Below, one piece after another: positions 2,946-50,053 of a stretch of DNA of 64,000 nucleotides. Positions within the stretch are counted from its first letter, which is position 1. Every line of letters starts with the position of its first letter. The stretch comes from an uncultured Poribacteria bacterium. GTDB lineage: Bacteria > Poribacteria > WGA-4E > WGA-3G. Position numbers and translations under genes: made by a program. The stretch spans positions 4,318,217 through 4,382,216 of the forward strand of contig OX639992.1 in assembly GCA_951828515.1 (NCBI GenBank), in the 5' to 3' direction. The notes beneath the pieces were generated by a model, which had not been told where the DNA came from, made no database searches, and worked only from the letters and a program-made list of their open reading frames with translations.

Positions 2946-5202
2946 AATATCTTAATAGGTCTATAAAAATGTATTTTAGAATAATCATGAAAATAGACCT
3001 GAAAGGACAGTGATATTTTTCCGTAGACGGAGATCTTGCCACGTCTGCTATATTTCACAAGAAGATTTGTGTGAGAGACACGTTTACGTCCCTCTATTCA
3101 CAAACCGACATCTTATAATGTAGGTTGGGTTGCGCCACAAGCGAAACCTAACACTACCCTAAAATGGAAGGAACTGAAACTATGAACGCTTTTCGATACT
3201 TTTTGCGATTTTACTGGCACTCATTTGTATCCCTCATATCACGAGTGCTCAAGAAAACGATGAAGGTCAAGGAGAGGGTGCTGAAATCCCGGAAACCGAT
3301 GAATCCGATGCCGTAGAGATTACCGATACCAACTTAGCCTCGGCAATCCGTAGCACGCTTGGCTTAGGGACGGATGCGGAGATAACCGCATCGGATATGC
3401 TGAATCTCACGAGTCTGCAAGCCAAGAAAGCAGGGATCAGCGACCTGAGCGGCTTGGCGCATGCGACGCACCTCACGACGCTCAATCTCGCTTCAAACTC
3501 AATTAGCAATCTCAGTCCGCTGAAAGACTTGCTGAGTCTCAATCACCTCGACCTCTACTCGAATCAAGTAACGGATCTCGGTTCGCTCTCAGGCCTCGAA
3601 AGTCTGACCTCCTTAGAGGTCGGTAAAAATGTGATTACCGACATAGAGGCTCTTGGAGACTTGACATCTCTGACGTCCCTGTATCTTGATGATAATAAGT
3701 TGACAGACTTCAGCGATCTCTCGAGTTTGACGGGTCTGAGCGTGTTGAGTCTGAGTAAGACGGGTATCAGCGATCTCAGCGTGCTTGAGAAGCTAACGAA
3801 CCTAACGCAGTTATATCTGACGGGCAACGAGATCAGTAGCATCACTGCGTTGTCAAAGTTGCCGAAGTTGGGTTGGTTATTTCTTGCGCAGAATCAGATA
3901 AGTGATGTCAGTCCACTTGTGGGTGTGGAGAGTTTGATGTCGTTGCGTCTGTTGGGGAATCCAGTATCGGATGCGTCACTGCTTTATCCATTGACGCAAG
4001 GGGGCCTGATAGATGTCGATATTGAGATACCGCCCCCGTCGGATACAGACCCTCCGAGTGTAGTGATTACGGTTCCCACGACTGCTCAGAATGGCGCGTT
4101 TGATGTAACGATAATGTTCAGTGAAGCCGTCTCCGGCTTTGAGCAATCGGATCTGTCGATCTCCGGGGCAGCCACTGCGACTGTCACGGCGTGGTCCTCT
4201 ACAGACGACACCGTCTTTACTGCGACGATTACGCCGACGAGGGATAGCGAGATGATGCTGAGTGTCGCCGCGGGTGTTGCCACCGATGCCGCAAACAATA
4301 ACAATACGGCTTCGGAGACACTGACGGTCACCGTAGATATGACTTCACCGGGTGTCAGTCTTTCTGTGCCAGCAGATGCTCAGAATGGTGCGTTTGATGT
4401 AACCATCACGTTCACGCAGGTAGTTTCCAACTTTTTGCAAGCAGACCTGACGCTTTCCGGGACAGCGGCTGCGACTGTCACGGCGTGGTCCTCTACAGAC
4501 GATAGGGTCTATACCGCCACAGTTACGCCAACGACGAGTGGGAATGTGGTGCTGAGTATCGCCGCGGGTGTCGCCACGGATGCCGCAGGCAACCAAAACA
4601 CGGCTTCCGACTCCCAGACTGTGACTGTGACACTGGAATGGATGCCGGATGCCAACCTCAAAGCTGCCGTTCGAGGCGCGCTTGGGCTTCAAGCAGAGGA
4701 GACACTCACCACGGCGAAAATGACAGAACTGCGGACACTGGATGCCCCATTGCGCGAGATAGAGAAGCTCACGGGGTTGGAACATGCCACGAGCCTGACG
4801 AATTTAGATCTGGGTGACAATTCGATAAGCGACATCAAGCCTCTTGAAGATTTGACGAGCCTGACGAATTTAGAACTGGATGACAATTCGATAAGCGACA
4901 TCAAGCCTCTTGAAGATTTGACGAGCCTGAAGGAGTTAGATCTGAGAGACAATTCGATAAGCGACATCAAGCCTCTTGAAGATTTGACGAGCCTGATGAA
5001 GTTAAATCTGGCAACGAATTCGATCAGCGATGTGAGTGATCTTAAAGGCTTGACGAACCTGACGGATTTATGGCTTGGAGGGAATTCGATAAGCGATGTG
5101 AGTGATCTTAAAGACTTGACGAACCTGACATCGTTATATCTGACGGCGAATTCGATCAGCGATGTGAGTGATCTTAAAGACTTGACGAGCCTGACAATGC
5201 TA

Positions 5203-6439
5203 GTAGTGTGTCAACCTTCTGTTGAAGGATATAGTTTGTTGAGTTTGATCCGTGCATCGTCGGTCGTAAACCGCCACTTGACCGTGGCACGTTGCTGATT
5301 TCTTCGGTCTTGCCATGCCTGGACCTCGCGCTTGAGGGTCTGTTGGTCGGGGATACGCCTTGAAAGGCATTGCCTGCTGAGGACGGAAAACTCAATCTCG
5401 GCGATGTTCAACCAACTGCCATGCTTCGGGGTATAGTGAAACTCTAACTTTTCAGCGATCCGATCCGCTTCGTCGGCTTCAAATGCCTTATACAAAGAAC
5501 CGAGTTTATGTGTATTGAGATTATCGCAAACCAGCAGAATCTTTTCTGCGTCTGGAAAATGCACATCGACGATATCTCGGCAGATATGTGCGAAATCAAT
5601 GCTCGTGCGTTGGTCGGTGACTTCAACGTGTCGAAATCCGAAAAAGGGTGCGAAAATCATAAACAGATTGCTGACGCCATTGCGTTTATATTCAGGATCA
5701 TATCGGTAAGGTTTCCCCGGACTTAGGGGCAGCGGCGGACGCATTTCCTGAAGGTGCTGTTTATTCGTCTCATCGACACACACCACAGGATACCTCGGGT
5801 CTTCAGGGCGCCCATAGAGGTCTAAGATGCCTTCCATCGCCGTCACGAATGCCTCCGAAGCTTCTGCTGGGATACACCAGCACTGCTTGCGCCAGGGACG
5901 CAGTTCGTTTTTTTTAGCACCTGTCGGATGCTTTCATGAGAAATACTTGAAAAATGGTGGAGCTCCACCATTTTCTCAGCTAACAGACGCAACGTCCAGC
6001 AGGCATGCCCCTCTGGCGGATCCGAACAGGCCAAGGCGATGAGATGTGCCTCTTTTTCGCCATCAAACTTTTTCGGTCTTGAGACCTGAGAGGGCTTTCT
6101 CGGGAGCAGGGCGGCTTCGAGACCTTCAAGCGCAAAGGTTTTACGCACGCGCTGAATAGTAGACAGGGAGACATCAAGACCTGCTTTTATCGCCTTATCG
6201 AGGAAAGCGGGTCCAAACTCGCCCGCGTCTGCTTTCAACAAGATCCGGGCGTGCGTGAGTTTTCTCGCAGATGCCGTGCCTGAAGTCGTCAGAGTTATCA
6301 GAGACTCTCGTTGCTCTGAGTCAAGAAGAACAGGGTAACGTTTTGCTGGCATAACAGACTCCAACTGAAAGGATTTATGACATTGACACGCAGCATACCA
6401 GTTTTCACAATAACTATCAATAGAAACTTGACACACTAC
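5203..6439 (-). mobile_element. IS630-family insertion sequence, TA target duplication
   Basis: The 1,237-bp element is flanked by TA at 5201-5202 and 6440-6441. Ends are inverted: GTAGTGTGTCAA at left and TTGACACACTAC at right. Removing the element and one TA restores a continuous LRR frame (...LTSLTMLDMAINSISDV...). TA target use, a DDE transposase and a two-frame reading arrangement fit IS630/Tc1-like elements. The uninterrupted transposase frames suggest recent arrival. Confidence 0.92.
5211..6352 (-). CDS. IS630-family transposase, two frames joined by a probable -1 frameshift
   Basis: DDE transposase that cuts and pastes the surrounding element into TA dinucleotides. The upstream frame starts at ATG 6352 (MPAKRYPVLLDSEQ, weak GGAG upstream) and carries the helix-turn-helix N-terminal part; it ends at 5843. 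The downstream frame ends at 5211 and carries the DDE core: D in VCVDETNKQ, D in LVCDNLNTHK, E in HGSWLNIAEIEF. Homology crosses frames at an A8 run (T8 on the plus strand, 5908-5915; A-AAA-AAA-C read on the minus strand), where a -1 slip gives LKKNELRPWRKQCWC. This slippery site makes programmed frameshifting likely; a plain indel is the alternative. The fused product would be about 380 residues. Confidence 0.88.
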
Positions 6440-7627
6440 TAGATATGGCTATCAATTCGATAAGTGACGTGAATCCTCTTAAAGACTTGACGAGCCTTGA
6501 GCATTTATATCTGTATGAGAATTCGGTAAGCGACGTGAGTGGTCTTAAAGACTTGGCGAGCCTGAAGCATTTATATCTGTATAAGAATTCGATCAGCGAT
6601 GTGAGTGATCTTAAAGACTTGACGAACCTGACAACGCTAGATCTGGGTAAGAATTCGATAAACGATGTGAGTGATCTTAAAGACTTGACGAACCTGAAAT
6701 CGTTACGTCTGGATCACAATTCAATAAGAAACGTGAGTGTGTTTGAGAAGTTGACGAGCCTGGAGTGGGTATGGCTTGCCGGCAACCCGATTTCGGATAC
6801 GTCGCCGCTTTATGATCTTTTGTCGGCGAACGGTGGCACCATTACCTATATTGACATAGATGTTTCTCGATATGCGCCGTGGGATGTCAATAAGGACGAG
6901 AGTGTGGATGCCAGCGATGTGGCACTCGTCACCGCCGCCTTAGGACAAAGTGGTGCGGACATCATAGATTCGCGCACGGATGTCAACGGCGATGGCACGG
7001 TGGATGCCGATGACCTGACGCTTGTCACCGAGAACCTCGATGCTGATGAGGAGGCGGCACCGTCGGCGATAGAGGGTATAGCGTCCCTCTTGGATCCCGC
7101 CGTGCTTGAATCCTTGGATCCAGAGGTGCTTGCTGCGCAGCTCTCAAGTTTGCGTTCAAAAAGCGACGGTTCTCTGAAATACTTACGTGCGATCGCATTG
7201 CTTGAAAGTGTGTTGGCAACTCTGCGTCCAGCCGAGACGTTGCTGTTGGCGAATTACCCGAATCCGTTCAACCCTGAGACGTGGATACCGTATCATCTGT
7301 CAAACCCAAGCCAAGTCGTGATAACCCTTTACGATGTGCGTGGCAGCGTCGTCCGCCGCTTGGAATTCGGACATCAGCGAGAAGGCTATTACACGAGTCG
7401 GAGTCGTGCGGCGTATTGGGACGGCAGAAATAGTATGGGTGAGCGTGTTGCGAGTGGTGTTTATCTCTATCAACTCCAGGCGGATAATATCTCCCTCCTG
7501 CGAAAGATGCTCCTCTTGAAGTAACCCCTACCCCCAAACCCGGTAGATGCGGTTTGATGAAATTTTACTAAATATGTCGGTAATTCTATGTTCTCTCCAG
7601 GCCCGGTAGGTGCGGTTTTATGCGTTT

Positions 7628-7721
7628 TATAGTAAATTCCGAAAATATCTGCACACCCCTGGTAGGTGCGGTTTCTAACCGCACCGAGTTTGGTGTAAAA
7701 GTAATTACAGAATCCACTATA
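7628..7721. repeat. 94-bp MITE-like element with TATAGT ends and TGCGG palindrome core
   Basis: Left end TATAGTAAATTCC, right end GAATCCACTATA. The core is the palindrome GGTGCGGTTTCTAACCGCACC. An almost identical 94-bp copy lies at 36798-36891. A third copy with the same ends but a different core is at 56108-56244. The TA-rich termini would suit mobilisation by a TA-targeting transposase, which is inference. Confidence 0.7.
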
Positions 7722-8197: not shown

Positions 8198-11100
8198 ATG
8201 AAACGTTTTTCGGTGCTTTTTGCGATTTCACTGGCACTCATTTGTATCCCTTGTATCACGAGTGCTCAAGGAAATGCTGCGCCAACGTTCACCGATGGAG
8301 ATAGCACGACGCGCTCGGTTGCGGAGAATACGGCGGCAGGCGAAACTATCGGTAGTGCCGTAGCCGCAACGGATACCGATACCGGCGATACCCTAACCTA
8401 CACGCTCGGTGGCACGGATGCGTCTTCGTTTGACATTGTCAGCACAAGCGGGCAGCTACAGACCAAAGATGCCCTCGACTATGAGACCGGCAACTCCTAC
8501 GAAGTGACAGTCTCTGTCTCTGATAGCACCGACACCGATACCATCACCGTCACGATCAATGTCACGAATGTCAACGAGGCACCGACGTTCCCTGATACCA
8601 CCAACACAACCCTTGAAGTAACAAATCACACACCGGTAGGCACAAACATCGACCCCGCAGTCTCCGCAACCGACCCCGATGTCACCGCCACGAACACGGA
8701 TGTCAATCCTGACAATGCTATTGTTGATGCTTTGACGTATACGCTCGGTGGCACGGATGCGTCCTCATTTGAGATTGATGCCGAAACCGGGCAGCTGCGA
8801 ACTGTGGAAGGTGTTGCGTTTGACCGCACAATCCAGTCGTCCTATAGCGTGACCGTCACCGCCTCCGATGGCGAGTTCAGTGTCGAAATCTCAGTAGGTA
8901 TCACTGTTGTGCTGACCCCGCCCAACGAGCGCACACCGCAGGTACAGGATGCTATCGTTGACGCACTCCCCCATAGAAGTTCTATCGACGATGTGACACT
9001 TGACGATCTGCGTCTGATTACACATATTCGGATGTGGGATCTTTACGTCCCAGATATGGTGGACCTCACTGCACTGCAAGCGGGGGATTTCGATGGATTC
9101 ACCGAAGTAACGAATATCAGGATACACGGTGCCAACTTGACCACGTTGCCAGAAGGTCTTTTTTCTGGACTCACCAAATTGCAGTATCTCAATCTGGGGC
9201 ATGTCGGTCCCCTTAGTACTGCCATCAGCCTAATTGGTAACCAATTGAGCGAGTTGCCTGCGGATATCTTTGACGGACTCACCGCATTGGAGGAGCTCCA
9301 TCTGGGGGATAACAACTTAGGAGAGAACGACTTGCCTGCGGATATCTTTGACGGACTCACCGCATTGAAGCAGATCTGGCTGAATAATAACGAGTTGACC
9401 ACGTTGCCAGAAGGTCTTTTTTCTGGACTCACATTGAACAGGCTCCATCTGCAGGAGAACGACTTGGGAGAGGGCGGCTTGCCGGAGGGTCTTTTTGATG
9501 GAGCCACCGTGGGGTCGATAAATCTGTGGCATAACGACTTGAGCGAGTTGCCGGAGGGTATCTTTGACGGACTCACCACATTGTGGAATCTTTCTCTGGG
9601 TAATAACGACCTCAGTGTGTTGCCTGCGGGTATCTTTGACGAACTCACCGCATTGGGAAGTCTCGGTCTGGGTAGTAACGACTTGAGCGAGTTGCCGGAG
9701 GGTATCTTTGACAAACTCACCGCATTGTGGGAGCTCGGTCTGCAGCATAATGAGTTGAGCGAGTTGCCTGCGGATATCTTTGACGAACTCACCGCATTGA
9801 CAGGTCTCGGTCTGGCTAGTAACGACCTCAGTGTGTTGCCTGCGGGTATCTTTGACGGACTCACCAAATTGGAGGAGCTCTATCTGGATGGTAACGTGTT
9901 CAGCACGTTGCCGGAGGGTATCTTTGGCGGACTCACCGCATTGACAATTCTCGATCTGGAAAGTGACTTGGTGTCTTCGTTTCGTGTACCCGTGTCGATA
10001 GAGGAGGTGAGTGGGGGAGCGTTCAAGGCAACGGCACCCACCGGCGCACCGTTTCCGATAGTCCTATCACTTACCGTTACCAAGGGCACCCTGAGTGAAA
10101 CGACAGTTACAATCCCTACCGGGGCACTTGAGAGCGACGCATTTGTAGTGGTGCCTACCCCCGGCGAGACGATCGCTGCTGTCAATGTGGATATCGACGA
10201 GCCACTGCCCAGTATACCGTCCACTCATAATGGATACAACCTCGTCTATAAAGATATACGAGCACCCAACGTTAGTATCATGGTGCCGACGGGGGTGCAG
10301 AATGGCGAGTTTGAGGTGACGGTGGTCTTTAATGAAGAGGTGCGGTTTTTTGAGCAGATAGGGCTCTTTATGAAGGGCACATCAGAACCGAGTATAGCGG
10401 AATGGAATCCGCAGGAAGGTGGCACCGACTACAAAGCCACGATTACCACCGTCCGTAGCGGCACGGCGATCTTCGAGGTTGCTGCGTCTAGAGCCGCGGA
10501 CTTTTCACATAATCTGAACACCGCTGCGGAGCAGAAAACAGTGAATATCCTCATCGGACCGACGTTCAGCGATGGGGATAGCACAACGCGCGCGGTGAAT
10601 GAGAATACCGCAGCGGGGGAAAACATTGGGACCCCAGTAGCGGCAACCGACCCCGATAGCGATGATATCCTAACCTACACGCTCGGTGGCACCGATGCGT
10701 CCTCATTTGATATTGATGCCGAAACCGGGCAACTGCAAACCAAAGCAGAACTTGACTATGAGACCGACGACTCCTATACCGTGACAGTCTCTGTCTCTGA
10801 TGGCAACAGCGGTACTGACGCTATTGATGTCACCATCGAGGTCACGAATGTCAACGAGGCTCCGAAATTTGCCACAACCACCGCCACACGTTCCATCGCA
10901 GAGAACACCGCAGCAGGCATAGATATCGGCGAACCAGTGGCGGCAACCGACCCCGATGTCGCCGGCACGAACACAGATGTCAATCCTGACGATGCGACTG
11001 TTGATGCTTTGACATACACGCTCGGTGGCACGGATACCGCGTCATTTGCTATTGATTCCGATACCGGGCAGTTGGAAACCAAAGTCGCACTCGACTATGA

Positions 11101-14100
11101 AACCAAGGACAGTTACGAAGTGACCGTCACCGCCTCCGATGGTGGCACGGATACCGCCTCTATCACCGTTACTATCAACATCACGGATGTCAACGAGGAC
11201 GTTCCCAATAGTGCGCCGACATTCACTGCTGGGGATAGCACGACGCGCTCAGTTGCGGAGAACACGGCGGCAGGCGAAGACATCGGTAGTGCCGTAGCCG
11301 CAACGGATACCGATATCGGCGATACCCTAACCTACACGCTCAGTGGCACCGATGCGTCCTCATTTGCGATTGTCAGCACAAGCGGGCAGCTACAGACCAA
11401 AGATGCCCTCGACTATGAGACCGACAACTCCTACGAAGTGACAGTCTCTGTCTCTGATAGCATCGACACCGATACCATCACCGTCACGATCAGTGTCACG
11501 AATGTCAACGAGGCACCGGCATTTGCCACAACCACGACCACGCGTTCCATCGCAGAGAACACCGCAGCATCAACAGATATCGGCACCGCAGTCTCCGCGA
11601 CGGATCCGGATGTCGCCGGGACGAACACGGATGTTAATCCTGATGATCCTAATGTTGATGCTTTGACGTACACGCTCGGTGGCACGGATGCCGCATCGTT
11701 TGATATTGTCAGCACAAGCGGGCAGCTGCAAACCAAATTGGCACTCGACTATGAGACTGACAACTCCTATTCCGTGACCGTCACCGTCTCCGATGGTGGC
11801 ACGGATACCGCCTCTATCACCGTTACTATCAACATCACGAATGTCAACGAGGCACCGAAATTTGCCACAACCACCGCCACGCGTTCCATCGCAGAGAACA
11901 CCGCAGTAGGCACAGCTATCGGCGAACCAGTGGCGGCAACCGACCCCGATGGCACGACAGATGTCAATCCTGAGGATGATAATGTTGATGCCTTGACGTA
12001 CACGCTTGGTGGCACGGATGCCGCCTCATTTGTTATTGATTCCGAAACCGGGCAGTTGAAAACCAAGGTCGCCCTCGACTATGAAACCAAGGACAGTTAC
12101 GAAGTGACCGTCACCGTCTCCGATGGTGGCACGGATACCGCCTCTATCACCGTTGTTATCAACATCACGACTGCGCCAACGTTCACCGATGGAGCTAGCA
12201 CGACGCGCTCGGTTGCGGAGAACACGGCAGCAGGCGAAGCCATCGGTAGTGCCGTAGCCGCAACGGATGCCGATAGCGGCAATACCCTAACCTACACGCT
12301 CGGTGGAGACCCGGATGCGGCATCGTTTACGATTGTCAGCACAAGCGGGCAGCTGCAGACCAAAGATGCCCTCGACTATGAAACCAAGGACAGTTACGAA
12401 GTGACCGTCACCGCCTCCGATGACAACGACAGCACTGACGCTATTACGGTGACTATCAATGTAACCAACGTCAACGAGGCACCGACATTCCCTGGTACTG
12501 GTACCACCGCCACGCGTTCCATCGCAGAGAACACGGGGACAGGTGAAAACATCGGTGCCGCAGTGTCCGCGACGGACCCCGATGGCACGACAGATGTTAA
12601 TCCTACAGATGCGACTGTTGATGCTTTGACGTACACCCTCGGTGGCACGGATGCCGCCTTATTTGCTATTGATGCCGATACCGGGCAGCTGCAAACAGTG
12701 GCAGGTGTTGTGTTTGACCGCACAATCCAGTCGTCCTATAGCGTGACCGTCACCGCCTCCGACGGCGAGTTCATGGTCACAATCTCAGTAGATATCACTG
12801 TTGTGGTAACGCCGGTATGTGACCGCACGCCACAGATACGGGCTGCCATCATTGCCGCCGTGCCAGGCGTGACCGACTGCGCTGACGTGACGGAGACGCA
12901 TCTCGCTGCGATTCCGACTCTTAATGTGTCCAGCCAGGGCATCACGACACTGAAAGCCGGCGATTTTGATGGTCTCACAACACTGATAACGCTCAACCTG
13001 AACGCCAACCGGCTTAGCACACTCCCGGCAGGAGTGTTTGATGAACTCACGGCATTGACAACGCTCAACCTGCGCCACAACCAGATGATGACACTCCCGG
13101 CGGATGTGTTTGATGAACTCACAGCACTCACAAATCTCAACCTGAATCGTAACCAGATTAGCGAACTCCGGGCAGAAGTGTTTGATAAACTCACAGCCCT
13201 GACAGTGCTCTACTTGGACAACAACCAGATGATGACACTCCGGGAGGATGTGTTTGATAAACTCACGGCACTGACAACGCTCAGCCTGAACGCCAACCAG
13301 CTTAGCGAACTCCCGGCGGGTGTGTTTGATGAACTCACGGCATTGACAACGCTCTTCCTGAACCACAACCAGATGATGACACTCCGGGAGGATGTGTTTG
13401 ATAAACTCACAGTACTCACAACGCTCTTCCTGAACAACAACCTGCTTAGCGAACTCCCGGCGGATGTGTTTGATAAACTCACAGCCCTGACATCACTCAG
13501 CCTGGGCGCAAACCTGCTTAGCGAACTCCCGGCGGATGTGTTTGATAAACTCACAGCCCTGACAGCGCTCAGCCTGAGCGACAACCTGCTTAGTGCCCTA
13601 CCGGCGGAGGTGTTTAAGGGGCTTACAGCACTCACAGAACTCTACCTGAGCGAGAATACCGTTGATCCATTGCCCGTGACGGTCTCACTAAAGAAGGGTG
13701 CAGAAGGGGCGTTCAAAGCCACGGCACACACCGGGGCACCCTTCGCTATAGCGTTACCGGTCACCGTTACCAGCGGGACCCTCGATGGGGATGCCACCAC
13801 GATTACAGTCCCCATCGGTGACGTGGAAAGTGACCCCCTGACTGTGACGCGCACAGCTGGCACAACGGCTGCTGTCACCGTGGATATTGGCACCTTGCCC
13901 GACTTGCCTTCAGACCATAACGGATACGCCCTCGTCAAATCTGCTGACCTTCCGCTTGAAATCTTCGAGGACGTATCCAATGCTGCGCCAACGTTCAGTG
14001 CTGGAGATAGCACGACGCTCTCAGTTGCGGAGAATACGGCGGCAGGCGAAGACATCGGTAGTGCCGTAGCCGCAACGGATACCGATACCGGCGATACCCT

Positions 14101-17100
14101 AACCTACACGCTCGGTGGCACGGATGCGTCCTCATTTGCGATTGTCAGCACAAGCGGGCAGCTACAGACCAAAGATGCCCTCGACTATGAGACCGACAAC
14201 TCCTACGAAGTGACAGTCTCTGTCTCTGATGGCACCGACACCGATACCATCACCGTCACGATCAGTGTCACGAATGTCAATGAGGCTCCGAAATTTGCCA
14301 CGACCACCGCCACGCGTTCTATCGCAGAGAACACCGCAGCATCAACAGATATCGGTGCCGCAGTCTCCGCAACCGACCCCGATGGCACTACAGATGTCAA
14401 TCCTGACGATGCGACTGTTGATGCCTTGACGTACACCCTCGGTGGCACGGATGCCGCGTCATTCGATATTGATTCCGAAACCGGGCAGTTGGAAACCAAA
14501 GTCGCACTTGACTATGAGACCGACAACTCCTACGAAGTGACGGTCTCTGTCTCTGATGGCACCGACACCGATACCATCACCGTCACGATCAGTGTCACGA
14601 ATGTCAATGAGGCTCCGAAATTTGCCACGACCACCGCCACGCGTTCTATCGCAGAGAACACCGCAGCATCAACAAATATCGGCGCAGTGGTATCCGCAAC
14701 CGACCCCGATGGCACGACAGATGTTAATCCTGATGATGATAATGTTGATGCTTTGACGTACACGCTCGGTGGCACGGATGCGTCTTCGTTTGCGATTGTC
14801 GGCACAAGTGGGCAACTGCAAACCAAATTGGCCCTCGACTATGAGACCGACAACTCATACACCGTGACAGTGAGCGTCTCTGATGGCACGGATACCGATT
14901 CTATTACCGTTACTATCAACATCACGAATGTCAACGAGGCTCCGAAATTTGCCACAACAACCACGACGCGTTCTATCGCAGAGAACGCCGCAGTAGGCAC
15001 AAATATCGGTGCCGCAGTCTCCGCAACCGACCCCGATGGCACTACAGATGTCAATCCTGAAGATGCGAATGTTGATGCTTTGACATACACGCTCGGTGGC
15101 ACCGATGCCGCATCGTTTAATATTGTCGGCACAAGTGGGCAACTGCAAACCAAAGTCGCACTCGACCATGAGACGAAGCCCTCCTACGAGGTGACCGTCA
15201 CCGCCTCCGATGGTGGCACGGATACCGCCTCTATCACCGTTACTATCAACATCTTAGAAACAACACGACCGAACGTTAGTATCACGGTGCCAACGGGCGT
15301 GCAAAATGGCGCGTTTGAGGTAACAGTCGTCTTTGATGAAGCGGTGACAGGGTTTGCGCAGTCAGAACTCGTTGTGACTGGGACATCAGGGTCGAGTATA
15401 ACGACGTGGAATCCGCAAACAGGCGGCACCGACTACAAAGCCACGATTACACCGACGCAAACAGGGACAGCGATCTTTAAGGTTGCGGCGAGCGTCGCAA
15501 AAGATGCCGCAGAGAATCAGAACACTGCTGCGATACAGCAAACCGTGCAAGTCGATATGACGCGTCCGACAGTAAGTATCACCATCCCATCAGGTGCGCA
15601 AAATGGAGTGTTTGAAGTGACAGTGGTTTTTAGTGAAGCGGTGACGGGATTTGCGCAGTCGGAGCTCGTTGTGACTGGGACATCGGGTGCGAGTATAACG
15701 GCATGGAATCCACAGACGGGCGGCACCGACTATAAAGCCACGATTACACCGACCAGTGGTGGCACGGCGATCTTCAATGTTGCTGAAAATGTCGCAGAAG
15801 ATACGGGTGGGAATCAGAACACTGTTGCGACACAGCAAACCGTGCAAGTCGATATGACGAGTCCGACAGTAAGTATTACCATCCCTTCAAGCGTGCAGAA
15901 CGCGCCTTTTGACGTGACGGTCGTGTTCAGTGAAGCCGTGACGGGATTTGAGCAGTCGGAACTCGTTGTAACTGGCACGTCAGGATCGAGTATAACGGCA
16001 TGGAATCCGCAGGACGGTGGCACCGACTACAAAGCGACAATCACACCGACGCAAACAGGGACAGCGATCTTTAACGTCGCCGCAAACGTCGCCGCAGACG
16101 CAGCAACTAATCAGAACACTGCTGCGACGCAGCAAACCGTGCAGGTCAACCTCACTCGCCCAACGGTAAGTATCACGATCCCTTCAGATGCACAGAATGG
16201 CGCGTTTGAAGTGACAGTGGTTTTTAGTGAAGCGGTGACAGGGTTTGCGCAGTCGGAACTCGTTGTGACTGGCACTTCGGGTGCGAGTATAACGACGTGG
16301 TCTCCGCAAACAGGCGGCACGGACTATAAAGCAACGATTACACCGACCAGTGGTGGCACGGCGATCTTCAATGTTGCTGAAAATGTCGCAGAAGATACGG
16401 GTGGGAATCAGAACACTGTTGCGACACAGCAAACCGTGCAAGTCGATATGACGAGTCCGACAGTGAGTCTTACCATCCCTTCAGGCGTGCAGAACGCGCC
16501 TTTTGACGTGACGGTCGTGTTCAGTGAAGCCGTGACGGGATTTGAGCAGTCGGAACTCGTTGTAACTGGCACGTCAGGATCGACGATAACAGCGTGGAAT
16601 CCGCAGGATGGCGGCACCGACTATAAAGCGACGATCACACCCACCAGTAGTGGCACGGCGCTCTTTAATGTTGCCGCAAACGTCGCAGCAGACGCAGCAA
16701 CTAATCAGAACACTGCTGCGACGCAGCAAACCGTGCAAGTCAACCTCACTCGCCCAACGGTAAGTATCACGATCCCTTCAGATGCACAGAATGGCGCGTT
16801 TGAAGTGACAGTGGTTTTTAGTGAAGCGGTGACAGGGTTTGCGCAGTCAGAGCTCGTTGTGAGTGGCACATCAGGATCGAGTATAACGACGTGGTCTCCG
16901 CAAACCGGCGGCACGGACTATAAAGCCACGATCACACCGACCAGTGGTGGCACGGCAATCTTTAATGTTGCCGCAAATGTCGCCGAAGACACAGGTGGGA
17001 ATCAGAACACTGTTGCGACACAGCAAACCGTGCAAGTCGATATGACGCAGCCGACAGTAAGTATTACCATCCCTTCAAGCGTGCAGAACGCGCCTTTTGA

Positions 17101-20100
17101 CGTGACGGTGGTGTTCAGTGAAGCCGTGACAGATTTCATTCAGTCGGAACTCGCTGTGAGTGGCACATCCGGCTCGAGTATAACGGCATGGAGTCCTCAG
17201 ACGGGTGGCACCGACTACAAAGCGACAATCACACCGACGCAAACAGGGACAGCGATCTTTAACGTCGCCGCAAACGTCGCCGCAGACGCAGCAACTAATC
17301 AGAACACTGCTGCGACAGAAAAAACCGTGCAAGTCGATAGGACGCAGCCGACAGTAAGTATCACTATCCCTTCAGAAGCACAGAATGGCGCATTTGAGGT
17401 AACAGTCGTTTTCAGTGAAGCGGTGACAGGGTTTGCGCAGTCAGAACTCGTTGTGAGTGGCACATCAGGATCGAGTATAACGACGTGGTCTCCGCAAACC
17501 GGCGGCACAGACTATAAAGCCACGATTACACCGACCAGTAGTGGCACGGCGATCTTTAACGTCGCCGCAAATGTCGCCAAGGATGCCGTAGAGAATCAGA
17601 ATACTGCTGCACCCCAGCAAACCGTGCAAGTCGATATGACGCAGCCGACAGTGAGTCTTACGATCCCTTCAGGCGTGCAGAACGCGCCTTTTGACGTGAC
17701 GGTGGTGTTCAGTGAAGCCGTCACAGGTTTCGTTCAGTCAGACCTCGCAGTCAGTGGGACATCGGGGTCGAGTATAACGGCATGGAATCCGCAGGATGGC
17801 GGCACCGACTATAAAGCCACGATTACGCCGACCAGTAGCGGAACAGCGATCTTCAATGTTGCCGCAAACGTCGCAGCAGACGCAGCAACTAATCAGAACA
17901 CTGCGGCGACGCAGCAAACCGTGCAAGTCAACCTCACCCGCCCAACGGTGAGTATTACGACCCCTTCGGATGCGCAGAATGGTGCGTTTGACGTGACGGT
18001 GGTGTTTAGTGAAGCGGTGACGGGATTTGAGCAGTCGGAGCTCGTTGTGACTGGGACATCGGGCGCAAGTATAACGGCATGGAATCCACAGACCGGCGGC
18101 ACGGACTACAAAGCCACGATTACACCGACGCAAACGGGGACAGCGATCTTCAATGTTGCGGCGAATGTTGCCGAGGACACCGGGAGTAATGGAAATACCG
18201 CTGCATCAGAGCAAACCGTGCAAGTCGATAGGACGCGTCCGACGGTAAGTATCACTATCCCCTCAGGAGCGCAGAACGGCGCGTTTGAGGTAACAGTCGT
18301 CTTTGATGAAGCCGTGACCGGGTTTGTGCAAAGTGAACTTGTTGTGACTGGCACATCAAGTGCGAGTATAACAGCGTGGAATCCACAGACGGGCGGCACC
18401 GACTATAGAGCCACGATTACACCGACGCAAACGGGGACAGCGATCTTTAACGTCGCGGCGAGCGTCGCAAAAGATGCTGCAGAGAATCAGAATATCGCTG
18501 CGACACAGCAAACCGTGCAAGTCGATATGACGCTTCCAGCGGTAAGTATCACCACCCCTTCAGGAGCGCAGAATGGTGCGTTTGACGTGACAGTGGTGTT
18601 CAGTGAAGCAATGACGGGATTTGTGCAGTCTGAGCTTATTGTCAGTGGGACATCGGGCGCAAGTATAACAGCGTGGAATCCGCAAACAGGCGACACCGAC
18701 TACAAAGCCGCAATCACACCGACACAGACAGGGACAGCGATCTTTAATGTTTCTGCGAATGTCGCCGAGGACGCAGCGACTAATGGGAACACCGCAGCAT
18801 CAGAGCAAACCGTGCAAGTGGTGCTGGTAATTCCGAGTGCTGTGAGGGATGACAGTCTCGAACCGCTGATGAGCGTCATCAAAGCGGATGGGACGCTCTA
18901 TGATCCTGACGTTGATATATTTACCAGTACCGATCCTGATAACGATCCGGTGACCTTCTCTGTGAACATTGACTTCGGAGAAGCGGTGTCTGGGTTTGTT
19001 CAGGCGGACTTTACAATCAATCAAAGCGGACAGACAGATGACACCTTGATTACCAACTGGGTAGCAGATGTCGATGGTGCCCGCTACACGGCAAAAATTA
19101 TCTGTAAGAAAAAGGGGGGCGTGTCGTTTTGGGTAGATGAAAATGTCGCACAATCCGTTGCTACCGATGCATGGAACACGGCATCGGCAAGGCAGGTCGT
19201 GTCAGTATTTTATGATGTGGGGACGCAAGACGACACGCATCCCTTTGTGACGCTTACGGTGCCTCCGGTGGAAGAAGTACAGACGGAAACCTTTATTGTG
19301 ACCGTGAGTTTCAACGAGCGGGTTTTCGATTTTACGCAGTCTGACCTGTCTATCGTCCCGCGTTTTCGGCAAAGCGCGCCCCTTGATGAGAAGCCGCCGG
19401 GAAAGGTAGTATCGATTGAAGGGTGGGAGCCGGATGCTGACGGGATGCGTTACACTGCGACGATCGCTCTCCTCGAGGCTCGTCCTCGTGAGTCGGATGG
19501 GAAGATTTACGATCAATTTTGGGTCGGTTTTATGGTTCAGGAGGGGGTTGCCCAGGATGCTGGAGGGAATCCGAATGGTGCCGTAGGTGAAAAGTTAGTC
19601 ACAGTCACCCTTCCCAAGGAATCAGATAAGACATCGCCTACTGTGAAGATTGTCCCACCTGATGATTCGCCGGCGGGCGCATTTGATGCGAAAATCTGTT
19701 TCAGTGAGGTAGTGATCGGTTTTACGGAGTCCGACCTCCAAGTCACCGGCACTGCGGGTGCCACGATTACCGACTGGAAAATACAAGAAGACGAAGAAGA
19801 TGAAGAAAATGTGCATGTGTTCATCGCTACACTCACACCGACCCAGGACGGCACTGTGACTCTCAACGTATCTGCCAACGTTGCCAAAGATGCAGCGGGG
19901 AACGGGAATACTGAAGCCACACAGCAGAGTATCACAGTGGCTGGCTTTGACTCACGTCCGACTGTCCGTATTATTGCGTCTGAAGGGGTCAATCTGGATC
20001 CTTTTCAAGTGACAATCGAATTCAGTGCGGCGGTCACCGACTTTGTGCAGAGCGAACTCTTATGCACCGGGACAGCGGAAATGACGGTTGCCGACTGGAG

Positions 20101-20980: not shown

Positions 20981-21071
20981 TCTAAAAATATTCAACGACG
21001 GGCGGATTGAACGCCATCCCATACAACGTAACTATGATCGCTGGCGAGGTTTTTAACCTCGCCATTTTACG

Positions 21072-38714: not shown

Positions 38715-39935
38715 TCTAATAACCCCTCCGCACCGCTGGCGAGGTTTCCCACCTCGCCTTCTTTCTTTTCTCTCATTTCTTAAACACTGCTCTGTACACT
38801 ATCGTACTACGATGCTACAATCGGTTTTCCAAATATGGTCACTGACTGCTGATTGCTGACCGCTGACCGCTGTTCGCGGTAGGTGCGGTTTTCAACCGTA
38901 CCATAAGTGTCAATCTAAGAAAAAATAACCGTCACGCCCCAGAAAAGTAGGCGCTGTTTGAAACTGCGCCGGATTTTACACAGAACCCCTGAAAACTTCA
39001 AAGACCTCTTGAATCCCGTAGGGTTTATTTGCTTGGGTATTTCTTCAGTATCTCTGTAGAAAAGTGCTACCTTACAGACCTAAGCCCCGTAGGGGTTTTT
39101 TGATAGGGTGTTTCTTCAGCATCTATAGAAATCTGTGGCAAAATGATACCGAAAACCACTAAATTGACACCTATGGTGCGGTTTCCTAACCGCACCGGGC
39201 ATAACCAAAAACAGTGGGACCTTTTAAGAGGAATCATCAATCAGAATTGGTATAACTACTGTTCTTCTGTAGGAGCGAGTGTTTTTGCTTGGGTGTTTCC
39301 GCATGCTCGCGAAGCAAGGTAGTAGGCACACTCCGTGTGCCGTTCACTAAGAAAGAACGTGCGATAATGCACGTCGCATTTGGGCGAGTACGCCGCAAAA
39401 TCGCACGACTACAAACAGAATTTTGATTTCCCCAGCGGGGCGATATGTGTTAATTGTCTGAATCACGGATTGACACAGATTACGCGGATTACGCGGATAA
39501 GAGAGCGTTCATTATTGGCATAGTGGATTTTAGTTTTCCTAACAGGGCTTGGCTAATGCGGTGCACACCGTGCTATAAACATACCGCCCTTACAGGTTTT
39601 AGGTTTACAAAAATCAAATATACTTGGAAATAAGAAACACCTATTATATTTAGCCCAGCAGGGGTTTTGCTTGAGTGTTTCTTCAATATGTCTATAATTA
39701 TGTGATGCTTCATCCCTCTTTAGCCCCAACGGGGCGACATGTTTATAGTCGCATGATGCTCCACCACTCCTCAGCCCCAGCGGGGCGACATGTGTGTAGA
39801 AAGCGACAATAACCACCTATCTTTAGCCCCAGCGGGGCGGCATGTGTGTAGGAAAGTGGTAAATCCCAAAACCCAAACCCCGTAGGGGCTGTGGGTTTCC
39901 CAACCTCGCTCCTCGCTACCAACCTCTGATTGCTG
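38715..39935. repeat. 1.2-kb repeat-dense region, no gene
   Basis: Contains members of at least five dispersed families: CTGACTGC-type tract (38835-38876), TGCGG palindromes (38880, 39175), four ~20-bp motif copies (39021-39046, 39091-39117, 39281-39300, 39661-39683), a GTAGGAGCGAG half (39269), and a run of CCCCAGCGGGG-CGACATGTGTGTAGAAA units (39425, 39722, 39775, 39825, 39885). The right end abuts the truncated restriction gene, so this block probably marks the deletion junction. Confidence 0.75.
38732..38775 (+). terminator. Rho-independent-type terminator after the NIPSNAP gene
   Basis: GGCGAGGT-TTCCC-ACCTCGCC (8-bp stem) followed by TTCTTTCTTTTCTCTC. Its stem is a member of the dispersed GCGAGGT palindrome family. 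Confidence 0.6.
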
Positions 39936-44757: not shown

Positions 44758-46143
44758 TCATCGTGATGGCGTGCTTCCGCAGATGCAATCCCCTTCTAAC
44801 GCACCGAGCGTAACGCGCTGAATCTGATTGATTGCGCTCTCTGGGGCGTCCACGAGGACACGGAGATAATTGTCAGTAAAGCCTGCGAGGTGGTTGTTTT
44901 CCCCTTCTCTGCTCGCTTCAATGAGCACCTCTTTCTGCTTTCCAAGCATCCGTTGTCGAAATGCCGTGTTCAGGCGTTCACCAAGCGCAATCATCGTTTG
45001 GCTGCGTGCCGCAGAGGCGTGTGGAGATACCTGATCCGGATAGGTCGCCGCGGGCGTGCCTTTCCGAGGGGAATAGCGGAACACGTGCAATTGACTGAAT
45101 CCGATGTCCTCGACGAATTGGCAAGACTCTTCAAAATGGGCATCCGTTTCGCCGGGAAATCCGACCATAATGTCAGTCGTAATCCCGACATCATCGCCAA
45201 AGACGCGTCGTAAGTTCTCAACGAGATGTGCGAATTCTGACGTGGTGTAACGCCGACGCATCTGTCGCAGTACCTCATCTGAACCGGCTTGGAGTGGAAG
45301 GTGGAAGTGCGGCATGCATTTCGGAAGTGCCGCCATCCGCTCGCCAAGGGTATCTGGGAAATACATCGGTTCAATCGAGCTGAAACGGATGCGTTCAATG
45401 CCTTCGATGTCGTGGATATGCTCTAAAATGTTGGCGATGTCTTTTTCCCGACCAGTGTCCACGCCGTAAGCACCGAGATGTACACCAGTGATGACGACTT
45501 CTTTGATACCGCTGTCAGCGATGCGATGGGCTTCGTCAGCAATGTCAGCGAGTGGACGGCTTGTCATCCTACCGCGCACGTACGGGATGATACAATAAGT
45601 ACAGAAGGCACTGCAGCCGTCTTGCACTTTGATAAGCGCACGCGTGCGTTTACCGGCATCACTGACACCTTTGCTAAAGCGTGCGTGTTCGCGAACCGCA
45701 TCGTGTTGAACGGGTTCTATGGCGAGGAGTGGGTTCGATGTGTGAGATGCCTCTGCTGTCGAGGTTTCTAACCTCGCTTCGGATGATGTTTCGGTGTGCA
45801 ATACATCGAGATATTGCTGAAAATCCGCCTTTTCTCGGTTGCCGAAAACGAACGTCACGCCGGGTATCTCTTCAATCGCCTCGCGGTCGCTTTCCGCATA
45901 GCAACCTGTGACGAGCACTTTCGCATTCGGATGCTGTCGGATCGATCTCCGAATAACTTGCCGTGCTTTCTGATCGGCGGTGTTTGTTACGGTGCATGTG
46001 TTGATGAGATAGAGGTCAGTCTGCTGTTGAGATGTCCCTTCCTCAACAACAGTATATCCGTTGCGCCGAAGTGTTTCGCGCATAGATTGCGTATCGTATT
46101 GATTGACCTTACAGCCCATCGTAATCAGTTTTGCAGTTTTCAT
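44758..46143 (-). CDS. mtaB: tRNA (t6A37) methylthiotransferase MtaB
   Basis: 461 residues. Radical-SAM enzyme adding a methylthio group to t6A37 of tRNA. N-terminal MTTase domain (TMGCKVNQYDTQSM, Cys ligands); radical-SAM Cx3Cx2C in CSAFCTYCIIPYVRG; VGFPGETDAHFEES; C-terminal TRAM domain. The MtaB subtype is judged from KVNQYD and the CSAFCTYC context. Between the two domains a 23-bp copy of a dispersed intergenic palindrome (GCTGTCGAGGTTTCTAACCTCGC, 45755-45777) lies in frame and encodes EARLETSTA. Confidence 0.93.
   Translation of the reverse strand: MKTAKLITMGCKVNQYDTQSMRETLRRNGYTVVEEGTSQQQTDLYLINTCTVTNTADQKARQVIRRSIRQHPNAKVLVTGCYAESDREAIEEIPGVTFVFGNREKADFQQYLDVLHTETSSEARLETSTAEASHTSNPLLAIEPVQHDAVREHARFSKGVSDAGKRTRALIKVQDGCSAFCTYCIIPYVRGRMTSRPLADIADEAHRIADSGIKEVVITGVHLGAYGVDTGREKDIANILEHIHDIEGIERIRFSSIEPMYFPDTLGERMAALPKCMPHFHLPLQAGSDEVLRQMRRRYTTSEFAHLVENLRRVFGDDVGITTDIMVGFPGETDAHFEESCQFVEDIGFSQLHVFRYSPRKGTPAATYPDQVSPHASAARSQTMIALGERLNTAFRQRMLGKQKEVLIEASREGENNHLAGFTDNYLRVLVDAPESAINQIQRVTLGALEGDCICGSTPSR
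45755..45777. repeat. Palindromic repeat embedded in the mtaB reading frame
   Basis: The 23 bp are identical to the core of the 48-bp tandem repeat at 49315-49446 and similar to hairpins after 20911, 37823 and 38714. Here it contributes residues in the linker between the MTTase and radical-SAM domains without breaking the frame. Confidence 0.8.
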
Positions 46144-46474
46144 GTTTTTTGGTCGGTTTAGTTTCTATTTTTAAACAAATATTATAACGAGTTTTTACCT
46201 GAATTGCAAGTATGATGTAGTTGTTAAGCAGGGACATTTAGTTCTCCAAAATTTTAGATGTTCGATTTTAGCGGATCCGCTGTAGGAGCGAGCTCCAGCT
46301 CGCGACTCTTCGCGTAAATTGGACAAAAACCTTAAAACTAAATAGCCCTGAGTTGTTAAGCGTATCCAGTTTCAGTAATTATCGGCTATCAGTTTTCAGG
46401 GATCGGTTAAGAGAATTGATTTAAAAAACACCTCTTTAACCGACAACCGAAGACCGATAACCGACAACCGTCTC
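46144..46474. other. Gap between mtaB and the oxidoreductase gene
   Basis: Holds GTAGGAGCGAGCTCCAGCTCGCGACTC (about 46282-46308) and a degenerate AACCGACAACCGAAGACCGATAACC tract (46436-46472) directly after the oxidoreductase stop. No gene seen. Confidence 0.55.
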
Positions 46475-49286: not shown

Positions 49287-49314
49287 CCTAAGTTGATACC
49301 GATCCGCCAAGGTT

Positions 49315-49446
49315 TCCGCTGTCGAGGTTTCTAACCTCGCCTACCGTCAAATCCTTCCCAGTTCCGCTGTCGAGGTTTCTAACCTCGCCTACCGTCAAAT
49401 CCTTCCCAGTTCCGCTGTCGAGGTTTCTAACCTCGCCTACCGTCAA
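49315..49446. repeat. 48-bp tandem repeat (2.75 copies) built on the GTCGAGGTTTCTAACCTCG palindrome
   Basis: Units start at 49315, 49363 and 49411 with no visible differences. Each contains the palindrome plus CTACCGTCAAATCCTTCCCAG. It lies 29 bp after the FG-GAP gene stop, where it could act as tandem terminators or mRNA-end hairpins. Confidence 0.85.
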
Positions 49447-49602
49447 TGTTTAAGTAATTTGGGTTTTACTATATAATCTTACTTTTGTTCTGATATACTA
49501 TTCAAACCAGTTTGGGTGGCAGGGCAAAATGGACCGCATAATCCGCCTGTCACCCTCCCACCTTCGCAGGGGGATAAATCGACTGGGGATCGGGAAATTC
49601 AA

Positions 49603-49863: not shown

Positions 49864-50053
49864 CCTTGTGGGACACGGCATATCATAAGGTAGATTAACC
49901 CGAGTTGCTGCCAACAAATTTCGGGTCTTCTCATAGCGTTTTCCAGGCACTTCCCACCCCGTAGGGGTGATATGTCTATAGAAAACAACGTGTATGAGCA
50001 ATCGCACCCCGTAGGGGTGCTATGTCTATAAATAGATGGCAACTTGCGTTAAA

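Follow-up and report, generated by a model that had tools for sequence, protein, structure and literature searches.

A GCTG-tagged REP palindrome inserted in frame in the mtaB gene of a Poribacteria bacterium

Introduction

What is a palindromic repeat doing inside the gene of a tRNA-modifying enzyme, and by what route did it come to lie there? The question is raised by an uncultured member of the Poribacteria, bacteria known mostly from sponges, in which mtaB (44758-46143, minus strand; assigned by TIGR01579 and by its orthologues), encoding the tRNA t6A37 methylthiotransferase of 461 amino acids, is host to such an insertion. Positions refer to the stretch of 64,000 nucleotides that we analysed, hereafter the window, or, where so marked, to the genome. 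The initial annotation of this DNA had described the block as a dispersed palindrome that adds nine residues between the two main MtaB domains, and had likened it to the palindromic elements (RPEs) of Rickettsia. Here we identify the block as a member of a family of repetitive extragenic palindromes (REPs), describe where else that family has entered proteins, and weigh how the mtaB copy might have arrived.

A family of GCTG-tagged palindromes

The block at 45755-45777 (plus strand) reads GCTGTCGAGGTTTCTAACCTCGC, with the tag GCTG at 45755-45758 and the core CGAGGTT-TCT-AACCTCG at 45760-45776. It belongs to a dispersed palindrome of which this 5.85-Mb genome has about 100 copies. On its own strand the element is a tag followed by a hairpin, GCTG plus GCGAGGTT-nnn-AACCTCGC, and the consensus of 110 aligned copies, written tag first, is (CC)GCTG-GCGAGGTT-TCT-AACCTCGC-C(TCTT), immediately outside of which conservation drops to background. 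These copies, those of the window included, were taken from stretches around 100 of the 119 places where the genome matches the core with at most 2 mismatches, a count in which a palindromic site may figure twice, once per strand; when copies with similar flanks are removed, 41 flank-distinct sites remain. The reversed control gave no match at all, and within the window the core CGAGGTTTCTAACCTCG, allowing up to 3 mismatches, is found 11 times against 0.17 expected, a number reached by 0 of 100 shuffles, so that the dispersal proposed in the initial annotation is borne out. Further copies in the window lie, for example, at 21040-21063 (GCTGGCGAGGTTTTTAACCTCGCC) and 38735-38758 (GCTGGCGAGGTTTCCCACCTCGCC), both on the plus strand, and many copies sit in longer repeats or tandem arrays with periods of 24, 32, 39, 48 or 50 bp. 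The pattern is present in 38/38 genomes of the genus with 2 to 181 matches each, and across this one genus it seems to bloom and fade (G007, G009, G001, G017 and G028 as against G016, G023 and G008).

Most of these genomes are metagenome assemblies, which are prone to break at repeats, and one might suspect an assembly artefact or a palindrome arisen by chance. Five separate genomes, however, share the insert of mtaB, the inserts of the other three aligned proteins recur in two to six genomes each, and the shuffled and reversed controls gave counts at or near zero, leaving this explanation a negligible probability.

In its 24-nt unit and high copy number the family agrees with the description of REPs as palindromes of 20-40 bp, and it has their conserved four-base tag beside the stem, GCTG (97 of the 110 copies; GTAG in 9 and other tags in 4) being an unlisted variant of the GTAG tag. 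Like REPs it is also mostly extragenic: among the 41 flank-distinct sites, four have been verified by alignment to lie inside proteins (MtaB, an iron-containing alcohol dehydrogenase, a redoxin and a membrane protein), and a possible fifth is at the N-terminus of a YihY protein. The block at 45755-45777 is thus a GCTG-tagged REP of a family multiplied in this Poribacteria genus, and it is because of its tag, stem and small loop, together with a transposase gene of the RAYT type (REP-associated tyrosine transposase) bracketed by the same repeats, that we assign it to the REPs and not to the RPEs.

The insertion in MtaB and its decay

Despite its insert, MtaB scores 427.4 bits against TIGR01579, above the curated cut-off of 357.05. 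The codons at 45754-45780 (minus strand) spell EARLETSTA, residues 122-130, and the repeat does lie in frame in the linker between the domains as the initial annotation had it; the net gain, however, is 6 codons (18 nt) and not nine. We searched 60 genomes, this one included, for MtaB orthologues and aligned 50 of them (34 of the same genus, 14 of the same order and 2 of the same class), two congeners with paralogue-level matches only (G019 and G022) and eight same-class genomes staying outside the alignment. The insert is found in 5/34 same-genus orthologues (this genome, G030, G016, G023 and G008) and is absent from 29/34 of the same genus, 14/14 of the same order and 2/2 of the same class; one of these 45 proteins, L041, carries an unrelated longer linker. 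The expectation that most relatives would lack the insertion therefore held, and that of clean borders held in part: relative to most congeners the difference is exactly +18 nt, in frame and within the inter-domain linker, but it is not exact to the base, as a few bases on each side, and with them a few neighbouring linker residues, also differ between filled and unfilled orthologues. Nor did we find, among the aligned MtaB proteins, the inserted residues conserved in orthologues that lack the repeat in their DNA, a case that the initial annotation had asked to be considered.

The five carriers read EARLETSTA, EARLETSPA, EARLEASPA, EAQLEASPA and EARLETAPA, with residue changes R/Q, T/A, S/A and T/P. 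Of the 8 Watson-Crick pairs of the stem, 7 are left in this genome, 8 in G030, 6 in G016, 5 in G023 and 7 in G008; in this genome the break is at the base of the stem, and in G016, G023 and G008, three of the five carriers, it lies inside. We read this decay as that of a drifting fossil in a tolerated linker. An AlphaFold2 model of MtaB (26 sequences; mean pLDDT 83.0) points the same way, with residues 121-136 below 50, a stretch of low confidence that follows a helix running to residue 125 and precedes the first radical-SAM strand at residue 168, and the insertion site is accordingly predicted to be a disordered linker. As to solved structures, MiaB (7mjz) aligns across the insert region and RimO (4jc0) aligns on both sides of it. 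That the insert has been kept in five species, including G016, G023 and G008 with 3-6 pattern matches left per genome, could alternatively mean that selection retains it for a function of the added peptide or of the mRNA hairpin in MtaB. We consider this very improbable in view of stems broken inside in three of five carriers, the varying residues, the disorder of the stretch in the model, and the use of other frames of the same element by other proteins.

In a four-protein tree, which is midpoint-rooted as the intended outgroups were lost to the gap filter, all five carriers belong to one clade (support 100) whose only other member, G026, is without the mtaB insert; the nodes that place G026 have support of 56-87.

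The intergenic array and neighbouring repeats

A tandem array of the same REP with its flank occupies the intergenic region at 49314-49446 (plus strand; period 48, 2.8 copies), and as the initial annotation had observed, 45755-45777 equals part of it, 49318-49340, letter for letter. We considered the array as the source of the mtaB insert and rejected it. Although 23/23 bases match, this genome is the only one of the five carriers to have the T at 45759 that completes the match: on the coding strand the other four filled orthologues have CTCGCC, as in the family consensus, and this genome has CTCGAC. The array is for this reason a sibling copy with no demonstrated role as source. It is missing in three relatives that have both flanks (loci of G030, G034 and G026) of the eight compared.

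The window holds other repeats as well. At 7668, 36838, 41404 and 41741 start the cores of palindromes of another family, akin to GTAG-GTGCGGTTnnnAACCGCAC, and a further RAYT, at G000:C1:2484747-2485217, lies amid copies of this family. At 49956-50037 the repeat CACCCCGTAGGGGTG(A/C)TATGTCTATA is present twice, a repeat which as an array of 50-bp period surrounds an IS200-like Y1 transposase at G000:C1:2864923, and 46286-46312 (GTAGGAGCGAGCTCCAGCTCGCGAC) is another REP-like palindrome with a GTAG tag, to which a GTAGGAGCGA repeat is similar that relatives have in the position of the 49314 array. Many REP copies (for example 49440-49475 of the window, L098, L110 and L138) have some 20 bp away a recurrent sequence like TGTATAAGTAATTACGGGTTTTACTATAA, perhaps an older, longer repeat. 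Long tandem repeats at 4789-6739, 9529-9959, 12974-13649 and 14105-18819 have units of 66, 72, 327 and 297 bp; the 297-bp unit is present in 11.9 copies, and the repeats of shorter unit look leucine-rich.

Copies inside other proteins

The initial annotation had suggested looking for the same element, in any reading, within other proteins. We scanned the copies of this genome for open reading frames and compared these with congeners (36 genomes searched per protein), and found the element in frame in several, with four of the six possible reading frames used across the aligned cases. An iron-containing alcohol dehydrogenase (PF00465, PF25137) has gained 18 nt reading GEVSNLA in 2/30 aligned proteins (this genome and G030); its structure model, at a mean pLDDT of 48.4, was discarded. 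In a redoxin/copper-monooxygenase protein (PF00578, PF03712) 48 nt reading GEVANLA have been added, likewise in 2/30, and the G030 protein has a second in-frame copy. A 782-residue protein with no Pfam match, by its look a membrane protein, has gained 12 nt in 6/30, and here the reading uses a frame with TAG in the common loop, in place of which carriers have TGG (this genome and G030) or TAC (G001, G007, G009 and G017).

These six membrane-protein carriers form two separate clades in the four-protein tree, and all are among the seven element-richest genomes (103, 61, 128, 91, 181 and 122 matches); the seventh, G028 with 68, does not have the loop filled. On both grounds we favour parallel insertion, one old gain with several losses being possible. 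A second loop of this protein, near residue 180, reads like the REP peptide in several congeners and is too variable to count, and in the homologue L225 (G025) the variable loop that takes up the REP insert elsewhere contains RRGEVTSPLRQ, which may stem from a different palindrome.

Adjoining the alcohol dehydrogenase gene is that of a beta-propeller protein (PF07676, PF13360), in which the REP peptide comes after the PQQ_2 match; in the fragment from this genome that match extends to residue 61. Among 21 readable loci of 30 the peptide is clear in 8, looks decayed in 4 and is absent in 9, and it is repeated in tandem and in frame in G004 (four copies) and G009 (two). In the YihY/BrkB protein (PF03631) of this genome, whose start codon is tentative, the element is near the N-terminus, and seven relatives have another start there. 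An LRR protein at 992441, an ASPIC-like protein at 3786193 and the site 2152115 were not counted as coding, the REP preceding the probable true start as judged from the sequences, nor were short reading frames that carry repeated flanks. A scan of at least 80 loci in the sequence collection, 64 of them from Poribacteria, gave no Poribacteria copy in a reading frame of 200 or more residues, the seven such frames all being in other phyla, and the coding cases consequently rest on the genome searches.

Filled and empty sites in the genome

We searched 21 sites of this genome in eight relatives; for 12 of them the first loci included no relative in which both flanks were present, three of these 12 were later added, and an earlier comparison of six sites included three where no relative had both flanks. 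At 4976663 a 70-nt insert beside a gene start is empty in 8/8 relatives. A donor of its flanks was not found in the genome, where, besides the insert itself, the REP part alone (26-32 nt) has matches elsewhere. Six sites are filled in G030 (3030348, 3297692, 3786192, 4064203, 4433584 and 5431104), at some further sites the relatives show a changed loop or sequence unrelated to the element, and the alignment at 4434654 was discarded because it was a repeated flank that had aligned. Since inserted lengths differ between sites (+12, +18, +18, +48 and about 70 nt), we found no single mobile unit or fixed junction.

RAYT genes and their REP partners

Pfam Y1_Tnp matches six places in this genome, five of them above its cut-off. 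Three of the proteins exceed the cut-off of 80 bits of NCBIfam NF047646 (REP-associated tyrosine transposase) with 121.9, 122.1 and 128.5 bits; of the other two, one is IS200-like and one stays below at 58.7 bits. The three RAYT genes and the IS200-like gene lie among four different repeat types. The RAYT of 121.9 bits (G000:C1:2880651-2881136) lies between GCTGGCGAGGTTTCCTAACCTCGCC and, on its other side, copies in inverted orientation, the bracketing arms being 25 nt long and 100% complementary; the third, of 128.5 bits (L062, G000:C1:2854481), lies among inverted arrays of TTTGGTAGGAGGGAACTCCGCTTCCCGACTC with period 43. At the place of the former, G012 matches L105 up to the two limits of the RAYT region, bases 12681 and 13487, and no more than 25 bases separate these matches. 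Inverted REP copies are present on both sides of this RAYT in our genome and in G024; that of G017 has a one-sided array plus copies of mixed orientation, the nearest REPs being in one orientation and not inverted.

Over 22 loci, the RAYTs at least 79% identical to this one (this genome, G024 and G017; 3/22) lie among GCTG REPs, one at 75% (G032) among GCAG REPs and twelve at 63-74% among GTAG or GTGG REPs, and near six at 53-57% the hairpin scan found no REPs. Nothing ties RAYT and REP to each other more strongly than this pairing of identity and tag. By analogy with PMC8266576, the RAYT would be the enzyme by which the REP is cut and moved. In G009, G001, G007, G028 and G030, five of the seven copy-richest genomes, we found no RAYT with more than 54% identity; the gene may have been lost there, the assembly may lack it, or the work may be done by another enzyme.

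The hairpin could instead have been copied from elsewhere with no transposase, if short stretches of homology already in the host, such as GCTG or GCTGGC, had allowed recombination or a switch of template. Such a route would accommodate the varying insert lengths and the REP-rich genomes with no close RAYT, and some unfilled sites have suitable bases: at the aligned insertion point of mtaB, 3/29 unfilled congeners (L016, L034 and L041) have CAGC, which is GCTG on the other strand, and in the membrane protein the unfilled L205 reads GGGCAAAGCCAGC at the place of GGGC...GCCAGC in filled congeners. CAGC occurs somewhere in 8/29 of the mtaB linkers, however, making this a weak match, and a pre-existing GCTG as the target of insertion was set aside on that count. 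Moreover, recombination alone leaves the pairing of RAYT and REP types over 22 loci unexplained, and we judge it unlikely.

A proposed route into mtaB

Overall we think it most likely, with a probability of roughly three in four, that the RAYT moved a REP copy as a single-stranded hairpin into the mtaB linker in the common ancestor of the five carriers, where it drifts as tolerated linker sequence. The mover would be the cognate RAYT, one of the Y1/HUH transposases of IS200/IS605 type. Once between the domains of MtaB, the copy would owe its survival to a net change in length divisible by three, to a reading of the hairpin that has no stop, and to a linker that is unstructured and variable in length; it would now be drifting there. 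The same process may have placed copies in four or more other proteins, and some of these copies would later have multiplied in tandem and in frame. That the RAYT drove the movement, that events took this order and that the copy is neutral is what we infer from the repeat family and its numbers, its pattern of presence and absence, the frames it uses and the RAYT that the same family brackets, all of which are observed. Against this account stand G026, which lies inside the carrier clade with no insert, albeit at the support given above, the five copy-rich genomes with no close RAYT, the varying insert lengths and the REPs of G017 that are not inverted.

Tentatively, and at somewhat less than even odds, the GCTG REP/RAYT system might be a continuing source of insertions into loops and linkers, with repeated and parallel entry, peptides in four frames and in-frame tandem expansion. 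The change of tag from GTAG to GCTG, which goes with the RAYT subfamily, would then lend itself to a test of the guide rule proposed for RAYT cleavage dinucleotides; extending the rule reported for a Marinomonas RAYT in PMC8266576, we would expect GCTG to select CA or CG in place of CT. The insertions also present small mobile hairpins as a source of new protein sequence in Poribacteria. With filled and empty sites in conserved genes, placed on a tree, and a likely enzyme, the insertion rule becomes testable. Passages of PMC8266576 report a test of the tag as guide for the cut and describe the spread of REPs as poorly understood.

Comparison with known systems

Among known systems the GTAG REPs and REPtrons come closest. 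As described in passages of Nunvar et al. 2010 (PMC2817692) and Di Nocera et al. 2013 (PMC3733652), they share with our element a four-base tag, a stem of 7-8 bp, a loop of 3-4, high copy number and arrangement in dimers or arrays, as well as copies inside genes and a RAYT gene surrounded by copies in opposite orientation, an arrangement reported in the former paper. The difference is in the tag, the main one here (GCTG, 97/110) being outside the variants GTAG, GYAG, GYRG, GTRG, GTMG and GTGG named in section 5 of PMC3733652. The same source reports intragenic REPs in several species and suggests that they are tolerated in linkers and loops.

The likeness to Rickettsia elements proposed in the initial annotation holds for behaviour and fails for family, given the tag, stem, loop and RAYT of a REP. 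RPEs, in the account of PMC3733652, are in-frame palindromes in unrelated proteins, thought to be tolerated in linkers or loops, and our element too is an in-frame palindrome within otherwise conserved proteins, which speaks of behaviour and not of kinship. This common behaviour is what descent from an RPE proper would predict, but tag, stem and bracketing RAYT fit REPs, and we regard such descent as extremely improbable, RPEs being set apart here by their description and not by sequence. In PMC3733652 the intragenic REPs of R. conorii are equated with RPE-4 and RPE-6, RPE-1 is called longer, and the CGTC REPs are said to have no dedicated transposase, in contrast to the RAYT among the Poribacteria copies. 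The inner palindrome GGCGAGGTTnnnAACCTCGCC is shared with CGTC-tagged REPs, since it occurs in Bacteroidota loci (for example Runella and Saprospiraceae), among the matches listed mostly within CGTC...GACG, whereas the Poribacteria copies carry AGC or TAC at that place, from the GCTG or GTAG tag.

Poribacteria have 0 occurrences in the text of PMC2817692 and PMC3733652, and going by titles and the beginnings of abstracts in the open-licence literature we found no report of such elements from this group. The kind of element is thus already known, and what is new, as far as our searches show, is a GCTG-tagged Poribacteria family, its pairing with a RAYT subfamily, and a set of aligned filled and empty sites.
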